64,000 nt of DNA, taken from NCBI GenBank assembly GCA_020833055.1, contig JAJHQZ010000001.1, forward strand, positions 186,001 through 250,000, in the 5' to 3' direction. Position numbers and translations under genes: made by a program. Position 1 is the stretch's first letter. Every line of letters starts with the position of its first letter. This DNA is from Candidatus Korarchaeum sp. GTDB taxonomy: Archaea > Korarchaeota > Korarchaeia > Korarchaeales > Korarchaeaceae. The notes under the pieces were generated by a model. It was not told where the DNA came from, did no database searches, and saw only the letters and a list, made by a program, of their open reading frames with translations. Positions 50,838 through 56,066 of the stretch are shown in pieces.

Positions 50838-51653
50838 GTGGGCGCATTGATAGAATTCGAGGGGGTGTCCTTCAGGTACGAGGGAAGCGAGTCCTACGCT
50901 ATCAGGGACGTAAACTTAGAGATAAGAAGGGGCGATTTCCTCCTAATAGCTGGAATGAGCGGCTCCGGGAAGTCTACGCTCTTGAGGATGATGAACGGAC
51001 TGATACCCCACTTTTACAGAGGGGAGATGGTTGGTAGAGTGTTAGTAGATGGTTTAGATACTAGAGAAGCTAGTGTAGCTCAGTTAGCTAGGAAAGTGGG
51101 CTTAGTCTTTCAGAATCCTGATAATCAGATAGTGACCCTGAGGGTAGATAGGGAAGTAGCTTTCGGACTCGAGAATCTAGGGGTGAGCAGAGAGGAGATG
51201 ATCTCTAGGGTGAATTACGCGTTATCTAAACTCAAGATAGAGCATTTAGGGAGGAGGCCCACTTACGAGCTGAGCGGTGGTGAGAAGCAACTAGTTGCAA
51301 TAGCATCAGTAATAGCGATGAAACCGGAAATATTAGTACTAGATGAACCTACTAGTGAATTAGATCCGTTTAGCGCAGCTAGAATCGTTAAGATACTGAG
51401 AGAACTCAATAGAGAGGGTATCACGGTAATCGTAGCTGAACACAGGCTGGATCTCTTCGCTCCACCATCCAATAGGCTCCTAGTGGTCCATGAAGGGAGG
51501 ATAAAATTCGATGGAGATCCTAGAGAGGTACTCTATGACGACCCCTATCCCCTAGGGGTTAAGTCACCTGGCGTCGTTAAATTCGCGAAGACTCATGGGG
51601 TTAGAGGCAAGCCGCTCACAGTAGGGGAGCTCTTGAGAGCTATAGTGGGGTGA
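50838..51653 (+). CDS. ECF transporter ATPase (EcfA1-like)
   Basis: One of two ATPases that energise an energy-coupling factor vitamin/metal importer. Walker A is GMSGSGKST at 39-47, Q loop LVFQNPDNQI near 91, signature YELSGGEKQ near 145, Walker B ILVLDEPTSELDP near 168, and the His switch in VAEHRLDLF. The GTG start is about 26 bases after TTATTATAATC at 50806-50816. Residues 42-94 are encoded by DNA that is base-for-base identical to the following ATPase gene. Confidence 0.92.
   Translation: MGALIEFEGVSFRYEGSESYAIRDVNLEIRRGDFLLIAGMSGSGKSTLLRMMNGLIPHFYRGEMVGRVLVDGLDTREASVAQLARKVGLVFQNPDNQIVTLRVDREVAFGLENLGVSREEMISRVNYALSKLKIEHLGRRPTYELSGGEKQLVAIASVIAMKPEILVLDEPTSELDPFSAARIVKILRELNREGITVIVAEHRLDLFAPPSNRLLVVHEGRIKFDGDPREVLYDDPYPLGVKSPGVVKFAKTHGVRGKPLTVGELLRAIVG
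50960..51121 (+). repeat. 162-bp exact repeat, copy A (inside first ECF ATPase gene)
   Basis: Every base from 50960 to 51121 equals 51771 to 51932 (offset 811). Flanking sequence in the two genes differs, including at synonymous sites. It spans Walker A to just past the Q loop. Confidence 0.97.
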
Positions 51654-51657
51654 TCTC

Positions 51658-52455
51658 TTGATAGAATTCCGGAATGCTGGTTTCAAATATGAGGGAAGTC
51701 GGGGATTCGCTATCAGAGGTATCTCATTGGAGTTCAGAGTTGGGAAGATATACGGGATCATAGGACCCAACGGCTCCGGGAAGTCTACGCTCTTGAGGAT
51801 GATGAACGGACTGATACCCCACTTTTACAGAGGGGAGATGGTTGGTAGAGTGTTAGTAGATGGTTTAGATACTAGAGAAGCTAGTGTAGCTCAGTTAGCT
51901 AGGAAAGTGGGCTTAGTCTTTCAGAATCCTGAGCATATGTTCTTCTCAGAATCGATTGAAGAGGAGGTCTCATTCGGACCTAGATCAGTTGGTATGGAAG
52001 AGAATGAGATCGGGGATTCCGTTAGATGGAGTCTCGAGGAAGTAGGTCTCTGGGAGCTCAGGAGGAGAGGTCCCTGGTCCCTCAGTGGAGGGGAGATGAA
52101 GAGGCTCTCGATAGCTTGCGTCCTCTCCATGAGACCGACTTTCTTAGCATTAGATGAGCCGACCATCGGACAGGATGCTATCTCTAAGGACTCTCTGATA
52201 AGTTTATTGAGGAATCTGAGAGGTGAGGGGAAGGGGATCATCGTCGTGACTCACGATATAGAATGGTTAGAGGAGCTAGATCCCGATGAAGTCATAGTGC
52301 TGAGTAAGGGATCTATCTATAAGAGAGGACCACCCGAAGATATTTTCTCAGATATAAGGGGATTGGTTATGAGCCAATTAATGCCTCCAGTCTCTTATAT
52401 CATTGAAGACCTTCTAAGGAGGTGCCTCAATGTTCGATCCGTTAGGGATGCTTGA
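51658..52455 (+). CDS. ECF transporter ATPase (EcfA2-like)
   Basis: The second ATPase of the importer, forming a heterodimer with the first. Walker A GPNGSGKST is at 36-44, Q loop VFQNPEHMFF near 88-97, signature WSLSGGEMKR near 138, Walker B FLALDEPTIGQD near 161, and the switch His in VVTHDIEWL. It starts 4 bp after the previous gene and ends inside the EcfT gene (26-bp overlap). The 162-bp repeat covers residues 39-91. Confidence 0.92.
   Translation: MIEFRNAGFKYEGSRGFAIRGISLEFRVGKIYGIIGPNGSGKSTLLRMMNGLIPHFYRGEMVGRVLVDGLDTREASVAQLARKVGLVFQNPEHMFFSESIEEEVSFGPRSVGMEENEIGDSVRWSLEEVGLWELRRRGPWSLSGGEMKRLSIACVLSMRPTFLALDEPTIGQDAISKDSLISLLRNLRGEGKGIIVVTHDIEWLEELDPDEVIVLSKGSIYKRGPPEDIFSDIRGLVMSQLMPPVSYIIEDLLRRCLNVRSVRDA
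51771..51932 (+). repeat. 162-bp exact repeat, copy B (inside second ECF ATPase gene)
   Basis: Identical to 50960-51121. The most likely origin is recent gene conversion between the two tandem paralogues. Confidence 0.97.
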
Positions 52456-53191
52456 GATATTCAGGACAGGCTATGCTGAGAGCGTATACGCTAGGCTGAA
52501 TCCCTTAGTTAAGTTCATCCTCTTCGCAGTCTTCATAATCCTCCCGTTATTGTCCACAAACCTTCTCCTCCAGCTCTTCTCCATGCTGGCGCAGATCCCC
52601 CTGATAATGATGTCTAGATCGGGGAGGAGGGTCGTCAGATCATTGAGAGCTTCAATGTTCTTCATTTTGATAATAATTCTCTTGAACTATATTGCTACAA
52701 ATAGTATAATTTTTAGCTTATCTATGGTGGTCAGATTGCTTGTGATGATAATAGCTTCGGCTATATTCATGAATGGGTCGAACCCCTCGGAAATAGGAGA
52801 TGTATTATCTAAACTGAGAGTCCCCACGTCGATTACTTTCTCTTTCATAGTGGCCTTGAGGTTCATCCCTGTGTTAGCGGATGATTTCATGAATATAGTC
52901 GCTTCTCAAGCTAGTAGGGGGCATGAAGTAGAGAGGAGCGGTTTCATAAGGAGAGCTAAGAGTCTACTCCCTCTATTGATACCTCTGATAGTCATAGCTA
53001 TCAGGAGGGCCCAGCAATTAGCTGAAGCGTTGGAGAGTAGGTGCTTCGGATCGGGGAAGAGGACGAGTTATATTAGTTATGGAGTGAGTTTCTCAGATTT
53101 CCTCGCTCTCATATATGCTATCATCGTGATAATCGTAGGCGTGTCCTTAGCGACACTCCCCCCAAGTTTTCCACTCCTTCCCTTCCGGTGA
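52430..53191 (+). CDS. ECF transporter transmembrane subunit EcfT
   Basis: The membrane coupling subunit of the ECF importer, with about five hydrophobic segments (LVKFILFAVFIILPLL, LLLQLFSMLAQIPLIM, and others). The two cytoplasmic coupling motifs that touch the ATPases are visible as SQASRGHEVER near 155 and LAEALESRCFG near 195. The substrate-binding S component is not encoded next to it, so this may be a shared group-II module. It ends 206 bp before orc1. Confidence 0.9.
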   Translation: MFDPLGMLEIFRTGYAESVYARLNPLVKFILFAVFIILPLLSTNLLLQLFSMLAQIPLIMMSRSGRRVVRSLRASMFFILIIILLNYIATNSIIFSLSMVVRLLVMIIASAIFMNGSNPSEIGDVLSKLRVPTSITFSFIVALRFIPVLADDFMNIVASQASRGHEVERSGFIRRAKSLLPLLIPLIVIAIRRAQQLAEALESRCFGSGKRTSYISYGVSFSDFLALIYAIIVIIVGVSLATLPPSFPLLPFR

Positions 53192-53195
53192 TATA

Positions 53196-53397
53196 GAGTT
53201 GAAAGTGTGTTCTTTCAACTCCGATGCTCATCTTATGGAGGTGATGGAGTTGAAATAGAGGGGTCTCTCCCCGACCTCGGAGATGATGGAGCTGAAATAT
53301 ATCACATATCCCTTATCATATGTTTTTCTGATCGATAGATATTATATAATACTTTCATAATACTTTCATTTAAAAAGGCATTAAGTTTAAAGGTAGA
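53196..53397 (+). promoter_or_regulatory. Candidate replication origin with ORB-like repeats and AT-rich tract
   Basis: Four copies of GGAG(T/C)TGAAA or AGAGTTGAAA occur directly upstream of orc1. Two are in inverted pair forming a perfect 10-bp stem (GAGTTGAAAG at 53196-53205, CTTTCAACTC at 53212-53221). Two more are direct repeats of 22 bases (53236-53257 and 53278-53299; 19 of 22 identical), the first followed by a G run (AGAGGGG at 53257-53263). The TTGAAA core and following G run resemble archaeal origin recognition boxes. An AT-rich stretch (53296-53380) with a repeated ATACTTTCAT follows and could be the unwinding element; it also holds the orc1 TATA TTTAAAAAG at 53369-53377. Confidence 0.65.
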
Positions 53398-54633
53398 GTG
53401 GACGCTTATCACATTCAGGTCTGGGCGGAGGGGAAGTCGTGGATGCCGATAAATAGTAGTATATTTTATGACACATCCTATTTAGGCTATTCAATAATTA
53501 AAGATAAGAGGGTCTTGAGGGACTCATTTATACCTGATACTCTACCGGGAAGAGAGGAACAGATATTCCAATTCACTAGGGCATTGTCAGACTTATTGAG
53601 CGATCAACCTCCGAGCGACGTGGCTTTCATAGGTAAGCCGGGAACTGGGAAGACAGCAGTAGCTAAGAACGTGACAGGGAAGTTCAAGCAGGAATACCCT
53701 AACATAAGGGCTAAGTTCATATACATAAACTGCAGTCAAGCGACGACTTCCTATAGAGTGATGTATCAATTGAATAGAGCCCTGGGCGTCCTAGTACCAC
53801 CTTCAGGCTATCCTTTCGACGTCCTCTGGGATAAGTTCATCGAAGCCTATTCATCTTCGAACTCCAGGCTTGTAGTCATATTAGATGAAGTAGACCTACT
53901 CGTCAGGAGGGACGGTGGGAGGATACTTTACTCACTCTCTAGGTTGAATTATGAGTTAGGGAGGAACCTCAGCATAAGTATGGTCGTCATAAGTAACACT
54001 TTGGACTTCTTGGATAGGTTGGATCCGAGAGAGAGGAGTAGCTTCGAGCCCCTGAGGATACACTTCCCTCCGTACACTCAACCTCAACTATACAATATAC
54101 TCAGACAGAGAGCTGACTTGGGTCTGAAGCTCGGGACATGGGATGATGAAGCACTTCATTTAATCGCAGCTAGAGTTGCTCAAGAGTCTGGGGATGCTAG
54201 GAGGGCTATAGATGTCTTGAGGATAGCTGCTGAGATCGCGGAAGATGAGAGAGCTGAGAAACTCGCAGTTAGGCATGTGGAGAAAGCCCTCAACTCAGTC
54301 AATGAGGAGGAGATATCTGTTACCGTTAGGACTCTACCCCTTCACCACAGGTTGATCTTAGCGGCGATAGCTGAGATATTGGAGAGGCCTCAAGTGAGGC
54401 CAGGGACTGGGGTCATCTATTCCTTATACACTAAGAAAGCTCAGAGTTATGGAGTGAAACCATTGACAATGAGGAGAGTGAGCGGTATCTTGAGGGAGCT
54501 CGAATCCCTTGGCTTAGTGGAGATAAAGATGGATTACGGAGGGGCTAGGGGTAATACTAAGGTCGTGGAGAGGATGGCGTTGCCTCCAACTCAAATGAAG
54601 TCCCTCCTCTTCCAAATGGGGGTAAGGACATAA
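53398..54633 (+). CDS. Origin-binding initiator Orc1/Cdc6
   Basis: An AAA+ initiator that binds origin boxes and loads MCM. After an N-terminal arm it has SFIPDTLPGREEQIFQF near 43-59, Walker A GKPGTGKT at 79-86, Walker B ILDEVDLLV near 161-169 and a sensor 2 GDARRAIDVLRIAA near 264-277. A winged-helix domain closes the protein (YGVKPLTMRRVSGILRELESLGL). The GTG 53398 is about 26 bases after TTTAAAAAG, supporting a leaderless start; ATG 53443 is an alternative. Its position next to origin-like repeats is the classical archaeal arrangement. Confidence 0.94.
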   Translation: MDAYHIQVWAEGKSWMPINSSIFYDTSYLGYSIIKDKRVLRDSFIPDTLPGREEQIFQFTRALSDLLSDQPPSDVAFIGKPGTGKTAVAKNVTGKFKQEYPNIRAKFIYINCSQATTSYRVMYQLNRALGVLVPPSGYPFDVLWDKFIEAYSSSNSRLVVILDEVDLLVRRDGGRILYSLSRLNYELGRNLSISMVVISNTLDFLDRLDPRERSSFEPLRIHFPPYTQPQLYNILRQRADLGLKLGTWDDEALHLIAARVAQESGDARRAIDVLRIAAEIAEDERAEKLAVRHVEKALNSVNEEEISVTVRTLPLHHRLILAAIAEILERPQVRPGTGVIYSLYTKKAQSYGVKPLTMRRVSGILRELESLGLVEIKMDYGGARGNTKVVERMALPPTQMKSLLFQMGVRT

Positions 54634-54644
54634 AATATCCATTT

Positions 54645-56066
54645 TTATTCGAAATCCATAATTTCAACTTCTAAATTCTCCATATTTAGTATGGGGACCT
54701 TACCCACAGTGACCTCTATCCCCAAGCTCCTTATGTACGGGGTCTCGTTCTCGAATGTGCCTGAGTTAATGAGCTTAACTCCCTTGTAATCCCCCACACC
54801 GTAAACGTGGACATGACCAGTGTGAAATATGTTAGGAGGATTCTCTATCAGTAACCAGTCTCTCTCCTCGGGCGATATGGGGTGCTCTCCGTATATAGGC
54901 ACTAAGTTCCTCAACTTCAAGATCCATGACATCGCTTCTACTACAGTCTGCGGCTTCACAGGTTGTAAGCCCGGTATATGCTTCATCACAGCATTTAAGC
55001 TCCTTCCATGATAGAGAAGAAGGATCAAACTCCCTATCTTTACTATAGATGGATTCGGTAACGCTACTACGTTCTGATTAGCGTCCAGTAGTATATCTAA
55101 GTAATCTCTATGGAGTTCGGGTTGGGGCTCGGCTTGTCTAACTGGCTCATGATTCCCGGGGATGTATATTATCTTGATCCGACTAGGTATCTTGGAGAGG
55201 AACTTACTAGCATATTCAAACTGTTTGTAAACGTCGGTTATCCTGAGCTCTTCCTCTTGATTAGGGTAAACGCCTATACCGTCCACTAAATCCCCGCATA
55301 TGATGAGGTACCTCACTTCCCTTGCCCCCTCACTCCTCAACCATCTCACGAACCTCTCGAAGGCCCCCTCATTGAAGTACCTGCTTCCTATATGCACATC
55401 ACTTATCATAACGACCTTCCCGCTGTGCCTCCCTTCAGGCACTTCATCATTCCTCACATCTGGGAGGAATATGCTCTCTCCATATATCTTCCCATTGACG
55501 TAAGTCCCCCTGACGCCTACTACGCTGTCCACCGGGGTCCTCTCCGCGAGCTCCCAAGCTCTACTATCCCTCTTGAATATAACGTTCACTATACCGCTTT
55601 CATCTTCAAGAATAATCTTTATTGACCCGTCTTTTGTTGATATTTTTTCCATTATCATACCTATTATGAAGAGATTGTCCCCATTTCTACTCGTCTTATT
55701 CTTCAGCTCGGCTATGGGTATGGGTTCGAGATCCACCCATCTCGATACTAGTGGCCTCAATTTATCGAACCTCGCTCTAACGAATCTGATGAACTCCTCT
55801 ACATTTCCTAAGATACCTAAGTTGTCTGGTTTCAAGACCACATCGAATTCGGAGCTCTCAACTCTATATCTACCTTCGTCAGCCTGTATCAGGGGGAGTA
55901 TGTCTTCATAATCTATAACGGGCTTACGCGGCACTAACTCTATTATCTTCTCGACATCCCCCCTTTGCATCAAATAGTTCAATGCCTCAGGCGTTAAGTT
56001 TAGGCCCTTCCTCAGGAACTTTCTGAGTAGCTCAACTTGGCTCATCACGAGATCGGGGAGATCCAA
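54645..56066 (-). CDS. polB: DNA polymerase D small subunit (DP1)
   Basis: The proofreading subunit of family D polymerase. An N-terminal helical domain is followed by an OB fold (NLFIIGMIMEKISTKDGSIKI near 124-145) and a calcineurin-like 3'-5' exonuclease domain: ISDVHIGSRYF near 222, CGDLVDGIGVY near 252, YIPGNHEPVRQ near 301, and HTGHVHVYGVGDYKGVKLIN near 413. The His and Asp of the phosphoesterase site are all present, so it should be active. The true start may be Met8 (MSQVELL). It is convergent with orc1, 11 bp apart; the large subunit DP2 is not in the window. Confidence 0.94.
   Translation of the reverse strand: MDLPDLVMSQVELLRKFLRKGLNLTPEALNYLMQRGDVEKIIELVPRKPVIDYEDILPLIQADEGRYRVESSEFDVVLKPDNLGILGNVEEFIRFVRARFDKLRPLVSRWVDLEPIPIAELKNKTSRNGDNLFIIGMIMEKISTKDGSIKIILEDESGIVNVIFKRDSRAWELAERTPVDSVVGVRGTYVNGKIYGESIFLPDVRNDEVPEGRHSGKVVMISDVHIGSRYFNEGAFERFVRWLRSEGAREVRYLIICGDLVDGIGVYPNQEEELRITDVYKQFEYASKFLSKIPSRIKIIYIPGNHEPVRQAEPQPELHRDYLDILLDANQNVVALPNPSIVKIGSLILLLYHGRSLNAVMKHIPGLQPVKPQTVVEAMSWILKLRNLVPIYGEHPISPEERDWLLIENPPNIFHTGHVHVYGVGDYKGVKLINSGTFENETPYIRSLGIEVTVGKVPILNMENLEVEIMDFE

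Follow-up and report, generated by a model that had tools for sequence, protein, structure and literature searches.

Archaeal origins of replication such as Pyrococcus oriC, Sulfolobus oriC1 and the haloarchaeal oriC1 combine repeated boxes beside the gene of an Orc1-1 type initiator with an AT-rich stretch. The canonical origin recognition box (ORB) consists of a dyad (TTCCASTKGAAA) and a G-string, and a common archaeal form has been given as TCCA[CG]T[TG]GAAA[TC][GA]AAGGGGT (PMC4164010, Table 1). In Sulfolobus oriC1, inverted ORBs lie on both sides of the unwinding region (PMC12141716). For Korarchaeota, we found no description of an origin in the open-access papers searched, and one may already have been predicted in silico.

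Here we analysed 64,000 nucleotides of Candidatus Korarchaeum sp. (contig JAJHQZ010000001.1, positions 186,001 to 250,000 of the forward strand), hereafter the window, to which all coordinates refer unless another genome is named. We predict that positions 53158-53374, beside orc1, function as a chromosomal replication origin of the archaeal oriC kind (probability about 0.93), and this interval is very probably the single start of chromosome copying in this heat-loving archaeon. The locus shares with the orc1/cdc6-adjacent origins named above the repeated boxes, the adjoining initiator gene, the AT-rich stretch, the AGTKGAAA core, the G-strings and a PolD subunit gene next door; as in Pyrococcus, there is apparently one origin per chromosome. 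It differs in that the korarchaeal boxes all stand to the same side of this stretch, that a palindrome of half-boxes is included in the array and that one box lies inside the upstream coding sequence. The flanking layout of Sulfolobus oriC1 is thus not found here, as there is no box beyond the AT-rich stretch. An archaeal oriC is a known kind of element, but in this lineage both the binding boxes and the matching part of the initiator are altered.

Layout and conservation of the box array

The array is situated between ecfT and orc1, both on the plus strand, and upstream of the latter (Table 1). The preliminary description of this DNA had reported an inverted pair, direct repeats 42 bp apart, a position upstream of orc1 and a trailing AT-rich stretch, all of which we confirmed in the sequence: site B, read directly, is a perfect 10-bp inverted pair, and the direct repeats, GGAGGTGATGGAGTTGAAATAG at 53237 and GGAGATGATGGAGCTGAAATAT at 53279, follow each other at a distance of exactly 42 bp. 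The sites listed there were correct, but the minus-strand site A, at the end of ecfT, had been overlooked and the array is larger than first described. Site A is oriented opposite to C and D. Both A and C possess the GAAA half and the G-string that follows it, the latter being absent from D. The G-string of C forms part of a short inverted repeat of G and C (53260-53272, GGGGTCTCTCCCC), in which it is followed by a C-run, an arrangement also present in several congeners. The ORBs of Haloarcula hispanica oriC1 likewise hold a G-rich inverted repeat (PMC4010727), although here it occurs at C only and the resemblance is one of sequence alone.

Table 1. Features of the orc1 locus, in window positions
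Feature	Positions	Strand	Remarks
ecfT-like transporter gene	52430-53191	+	TIGR02454 match E 1.6e-9, below curated cut-off; 3' end carries site A
Site A, ORB-like	53158-53186	-	GGAAGGGAAGGAGTGGAAAACTTGGGGGG; G6 string; overlaps 3' end of ecfT coding region
Site B, palindrome of two half-boxes	53196-53221	.	GAGTTGAAAG-TGTGTT-CTTTCAACTC; 6-nt centre
Site C, ORB-like	53237-53264	+	GGAGGTGATGGAGTTGAAATAGAGGGGT, with G-string; then CTCTCCCC
Site D, ORB-like	53279-53305	+	GGAGATGATGGAGCTGAAATATATCAC; without G-string; abuts AT-rich stretch
Candidate duplex unwinding element	53295-53374	.	80% AT; nearest-neighbour stability
Likely orc1 core promoter	53369-53393	+	TTTAAAAAGG...AAGTTTAAAGG; conserved in 12 species
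orc1/cdc6 initiator gene	53443-54633	+	TIGR02928, 332.9 bits; most likely start ATG 53443
DNA polymerase II (PolD) small subunit	54645-56066	-	NF003118 above cut-off; converges on orc1

The candidate unwinding element, which borders on D and lies ahead of the likely orc1 promoter, ranks among the 80-bp stretches of lowest stability in the 389-kb contig, where only 7 separate places are as unstable. The promoter, with its TATA-like sequence, was predicted from its conservation in 12 species. Since frame-breaking indels occur in congeners between GTG 53398 and ATG 53443, the latter most likely is the start of orc1, with a Shine-Dalgarno sequence (GGAGGGG, 53427-53433) about 10 bp before it. In the presumed leader, positions 53409-53434 (TTCAGGTC..GGGCGGAGGGGAAG) are strongly conserved in congeners, to a degree exceeding a simple Shine-Dalgarno sequence, and leader regulation is possible. 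Further upstream, a stretch of 162 bases is identical between the two adjacent ecfA ATPase genes (50960-51121 and 51771-51932) amid strongly diverged flanks, which suggests recent gene conversion or a misassembly; the contigs of several relatives break off some 1.6 kb before orc1, close to where this ecfA repeat would be expected.

To score the boxes, we built a 27-column weight matrix by iteration from a seed consensus picked by eye, with the DNA upstream of orc1 in 12 other congeners as the training set; both the genome under study and its closest relative, G010, were excluded from it. The three best matches in the 389-kb contig were C (33.9 bits), A (28.7 bits) and D (25.4 bits), the next real match reaching 16.8 bits. 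Because Markov-simulated sequence of equal length attained a maximum of 25.2 bits (8 trials), D taken alone is marginal with respect to chance, whereas C, A and the cluster as a whole exceed it. In this contig, throughout G010 and across the 0.8 Mb scanned of a second relative, G012, which belongs to the training genomes, clusters of at least three matches within 160 bp were found only upstream of orc1. In the 4.2-kb locus, no match was detected beyond the AT-rich stretch. The clustering of the motif that the preliminary description had looked to as a sign of an origin is therefore present, but the bare decamer that it proposed, GGAGYTGAAA, is not rare: the genome contains 15 copies, against 20 for the reversed control, and 5 of the 15 lie in a CRISPR array. 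Being too short and common to the CRISPR repeat, the decamer was dropped as a genome marker; the 20-bp form GGANNTGAWGGAGNTGAAAT matches exactly at C and D only in the whole 1.39-Mb genome.

Congeners keep the order and orientation of the sites, which, counted from the codon at 53398 of our sequence, stand at about -243 (A, minus), -200 (B), -160 (C, plus) and -120 (D, plus). The C-D spacing is 38-42 bp, and A and C are 82-83 bp apart in most species and 77 bp apart in our genome and in G010, a difference of half a turn, by which strict helical phasing of the boxes was discarded. CTCCTTC in site A is invariant across the 12 species, and the invariant columns follow a 9-bp rhythm (GA..TGA..GA...GAA). 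The phylum is small, with 29 genomes from 10 genera in the set searched; among the other genera of the family, G019 has the same three boxes and the rest have one or two degenerate boxes, or none above threshold.

Skew and gene order around orc1

A minimum of the GC skew at this locus had also been put forward as a mark of the origin. The minimum of the naive cumulative GC skew is not at orc1, and the naive GC, AT, RY and MK curves, which are affected by gene orientation, were set aside. When skew was instead scored per gene at fourfold-degenerate third positions, with subtraction of the average effect of gene orientation, it flipped no more than 2 kb from orc1 in the relatives G010 and G012. 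In G010, which is complete as a single contig of 1,590,757 bp, the up-step at 1,378,284 corresponds to the ecfT gene beside orc1 (1,378,870), and the down-step at 585 kb compares with an antipode at about 583 kb; both statistics surpass the maxima of 20-gene block permutations (GC 7.9 vs 5.9; purine 11.8 vs 7.3). Since the bootstrap 5-95% interval of the purine step extends over 1.337-1.412 Mb, skew alone places the origin to tens of kb only. In G012, the purine step is found at 300.5 kb (bootstrap 277-304 kb) and orc1 at 298.6-299.7 kb. The 389-kb contig of the window shows no significant step (GC p=0.20, purine p=0.81, block permutation), plausibly because its left arm is largely inverted with respect to G010. 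This inversion, from -238 to -47 kb relative to orc1, took place within one arm and is not mirrored about the origin.

Comparison of G012 with G010 revealed that about 45 kb around orc1 are colinear and that, beyond this core, the arms are exchanged and inverted: the G012 segment from -295 to -57 kb maps to +320 to +78 kb in G010, and that from +66 to +498 kb maps to -32 to -431 kb. Such mirrored exchange of arms is a known signature of inversions symmetric about the origin and the terminus. The best mirror point of this pair is at 1.42 Mb, about 40 kb from orc1, an offset consistent with a few unequal inversions. The cluster of boxes, the skew flip in relatives and the gene order mirrored about orc1 all support the origin reading of the preliminary description.

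The genome encodes a second orc gene (L187; 1,016,348 in G010), adjoining an RFC large-subunit-like gene. Neither a box cluster nor a skew step was found there and its product lacks the recognition-helix arginines, so that we do not propose a second origin at this gene; the paralogue is more likely a regulator than the cognate of such an origin.

Alternative readings of the repeats

The preliminary description had also considered regulation of orc1 or termination of ecfT, both of which leave the skew, the mirrored gene order and the position of site A inside ecfT unexplained. The boxes do lie upstream of the orc1 promoter and would be bound, if at all, by Orc1, and initiator autoregulation is plausible, but it is very unlikely that they are simply operators for Orc1 control of its own gene with the origin elsewhere nearby: more than 60 bp separate the end of the nearest site, at 53305, from the TATA-like sequence, site A is within ecfT, the skew and the gene-order symmetry centre on the box interval, and G010 has no other box cluster. 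Autoregulation of orc1 may nevertheless accompany origin function, and the boxes could partly serve it. For palindrome B, and for B only, a place outside the origin, where it would act in the ecfT operon as a terminator or RNA hairpin, or else bind some other dimeric protein, is a possibility that we consider rather unlikely. The palindrome begins 5 bp past the ecfT stop codon, is predicted to form a stable RNA fold (z about -3.8) and has arms that have changed together, away from the box spelling, in G003 and others; however, no T-run follows the stem-loop, no terminator-like site was found and there is no Rfam match, while half-boxes can be recognised in the arms in most species, and A, C and D are left unexplained. 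Across the 12 species, 82.5% of cells pair in the palindrome, compared with at most 57.5% when it is slid, and 5 of its 10 pairs show changes on both arms, a pattern that a hairpin and a symmetric binding site for a protein would both be expected to show. Site B may have an extra role.

Comparison with congeners refuted two further readings. The genome's own CRISPR repeat ends in GGGAGTTGAAAG, and in a CRISPR-like array of this contig (G000:C1, about 440-760 in contig positions, L005) the 3' end of the repeat AATCCCGGAAAGGGAGTTGAAAG is equal to the box core, so relics of a CRISPR array had to be considered, but the 42-bp spacing, the mixed orientations, the full 23-bp repeat not being common to the boxes and the conservation of the box array ahead of orc1 in 12 species, among which the spelling has diverged, make such a derivation extremely improbable; the match between the end of the CRISPR repeat and the core of the origin box is probably convergence. 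A short CRISPR array with the same repeat is also present in G010, at about 258.5 kb on its reverse complement. Equally remote is the reading of GGAGGTGATGGAGTTGAAATAG as a ribosome-binding site serving a very short leader ORF (ATG GAG TTG AAA TAG), for which our sequence offers a Shine-Dalgarno-like GGAGGTGAT ahead of the ATG, while several congeners have GGAGTTGAAGGAGTTGAAC and no ATG, and the same box is found on the opposite strand as well.

Boxes, initiator and the proposed course of initiation

The preliminary description had regarded the spelling of the boxes as their own, and this is correct for only a part of them. Site C (TGGAGTTGAAATAGAGGGGT) gives a 17/20 ungapped match to the common archaeal ORB, the best of the contig, sharing with it in register A[CG]T[TG]GAAA, the next pyrimidine and GGGGT. 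The left half departs from it in lacking the CC, with TGG or AGG replacing TCC, and GGAGTTGAA stands where the canonical ORB has TTCC. Furthermore, the box halves of A, C and D are identical at 7/9 positions when aligned as a 9-bp direct repeat and at 0/9 when aligned as a dyad. As the TTCC half and the dyad symmetry are missing, we regard the box as a variant and not as a canonical ORB. Of the archaea from other phyla whose Orc1 has a canonical wing, G055, G033 and G029 have the canonical dyad near orc1, and no canonical box was found within the orc1 locus examined in G042, G035 and G053.

The closest solved structure to the Orc1 encoded here is that of A. pernix Orc1 (2v1u, E 3.5e-72), S. 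solfataricus Orc1-1 (2qby A) being also matched, and the protein contains a P-loop, an ISM region and a winged helix. The arginines with which A. pernix Orc1 contacts DNA are R345/R346 and R367/R369 (PMC9738581). The equivalent of the first pair, in the recognition helix, is present in 22/22 orc1 of the Korarchaeum family as TMRRVS or TLRRVS, and the wing arginines, R367/R369, are absent in 22/22, where YGG[AS]xGNT replaces SRGRYGKT. GRYG is retained in 6 of the 8 other archaea compared, and RGRYG is present in G024, which belongs to another family of the same order; comparison of wing and box in the more distant families of the phylum (G024-G028) ended at contig edges or found no boxes.

Given that the TTCC half and the wing arginines are lost and the helix arginines are kept, the mode of recognition between Orc1 and box has probably shifted. 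The joint change of box half and wing is a correlation within a single lineage, and not proof of coupling. We tentatively suggest, as a reading still short of even odds, that co-evolution of initiator and origin has given the Korarchaeum family a recognition code of its own, in which loss of the wing arginines goes with a direct-repeat box, Orc1 reads another register or a tandem pair, the loading platform is one-sided and B is maybe a second initiator arrangement.

By analogy with studied archaea, from which Orc1 binding, MCM loading and unwinding at this array are extrapolated, initiation could proceed as follows. Orc1 produced from the adjoining gene would bind A, C and D, and possibly also the paired half-boxes of B, the GGAGTKGAAA part being contacted by the winged helix and the G-string by the AAA+ domain. 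From C and D, which point towards the AT-rich stretch, ATP-Orc1 would recruit MCM to that stretch, and A and B would strengthen or regulate this loading platform. The AT-rich stretch would then open, and two forks would depart in opposite directions to meet on the far side of the chromosome.

Korarchaeota are a deep and little-studied branch of the archaea, for which a located single origin and terminus would be usable for estimates of growth from metagenomic read depth. In addition, the altered initiator wing and the altered box would constitute a natural pair, offering a testable case of joint change between Orc1 and its box.
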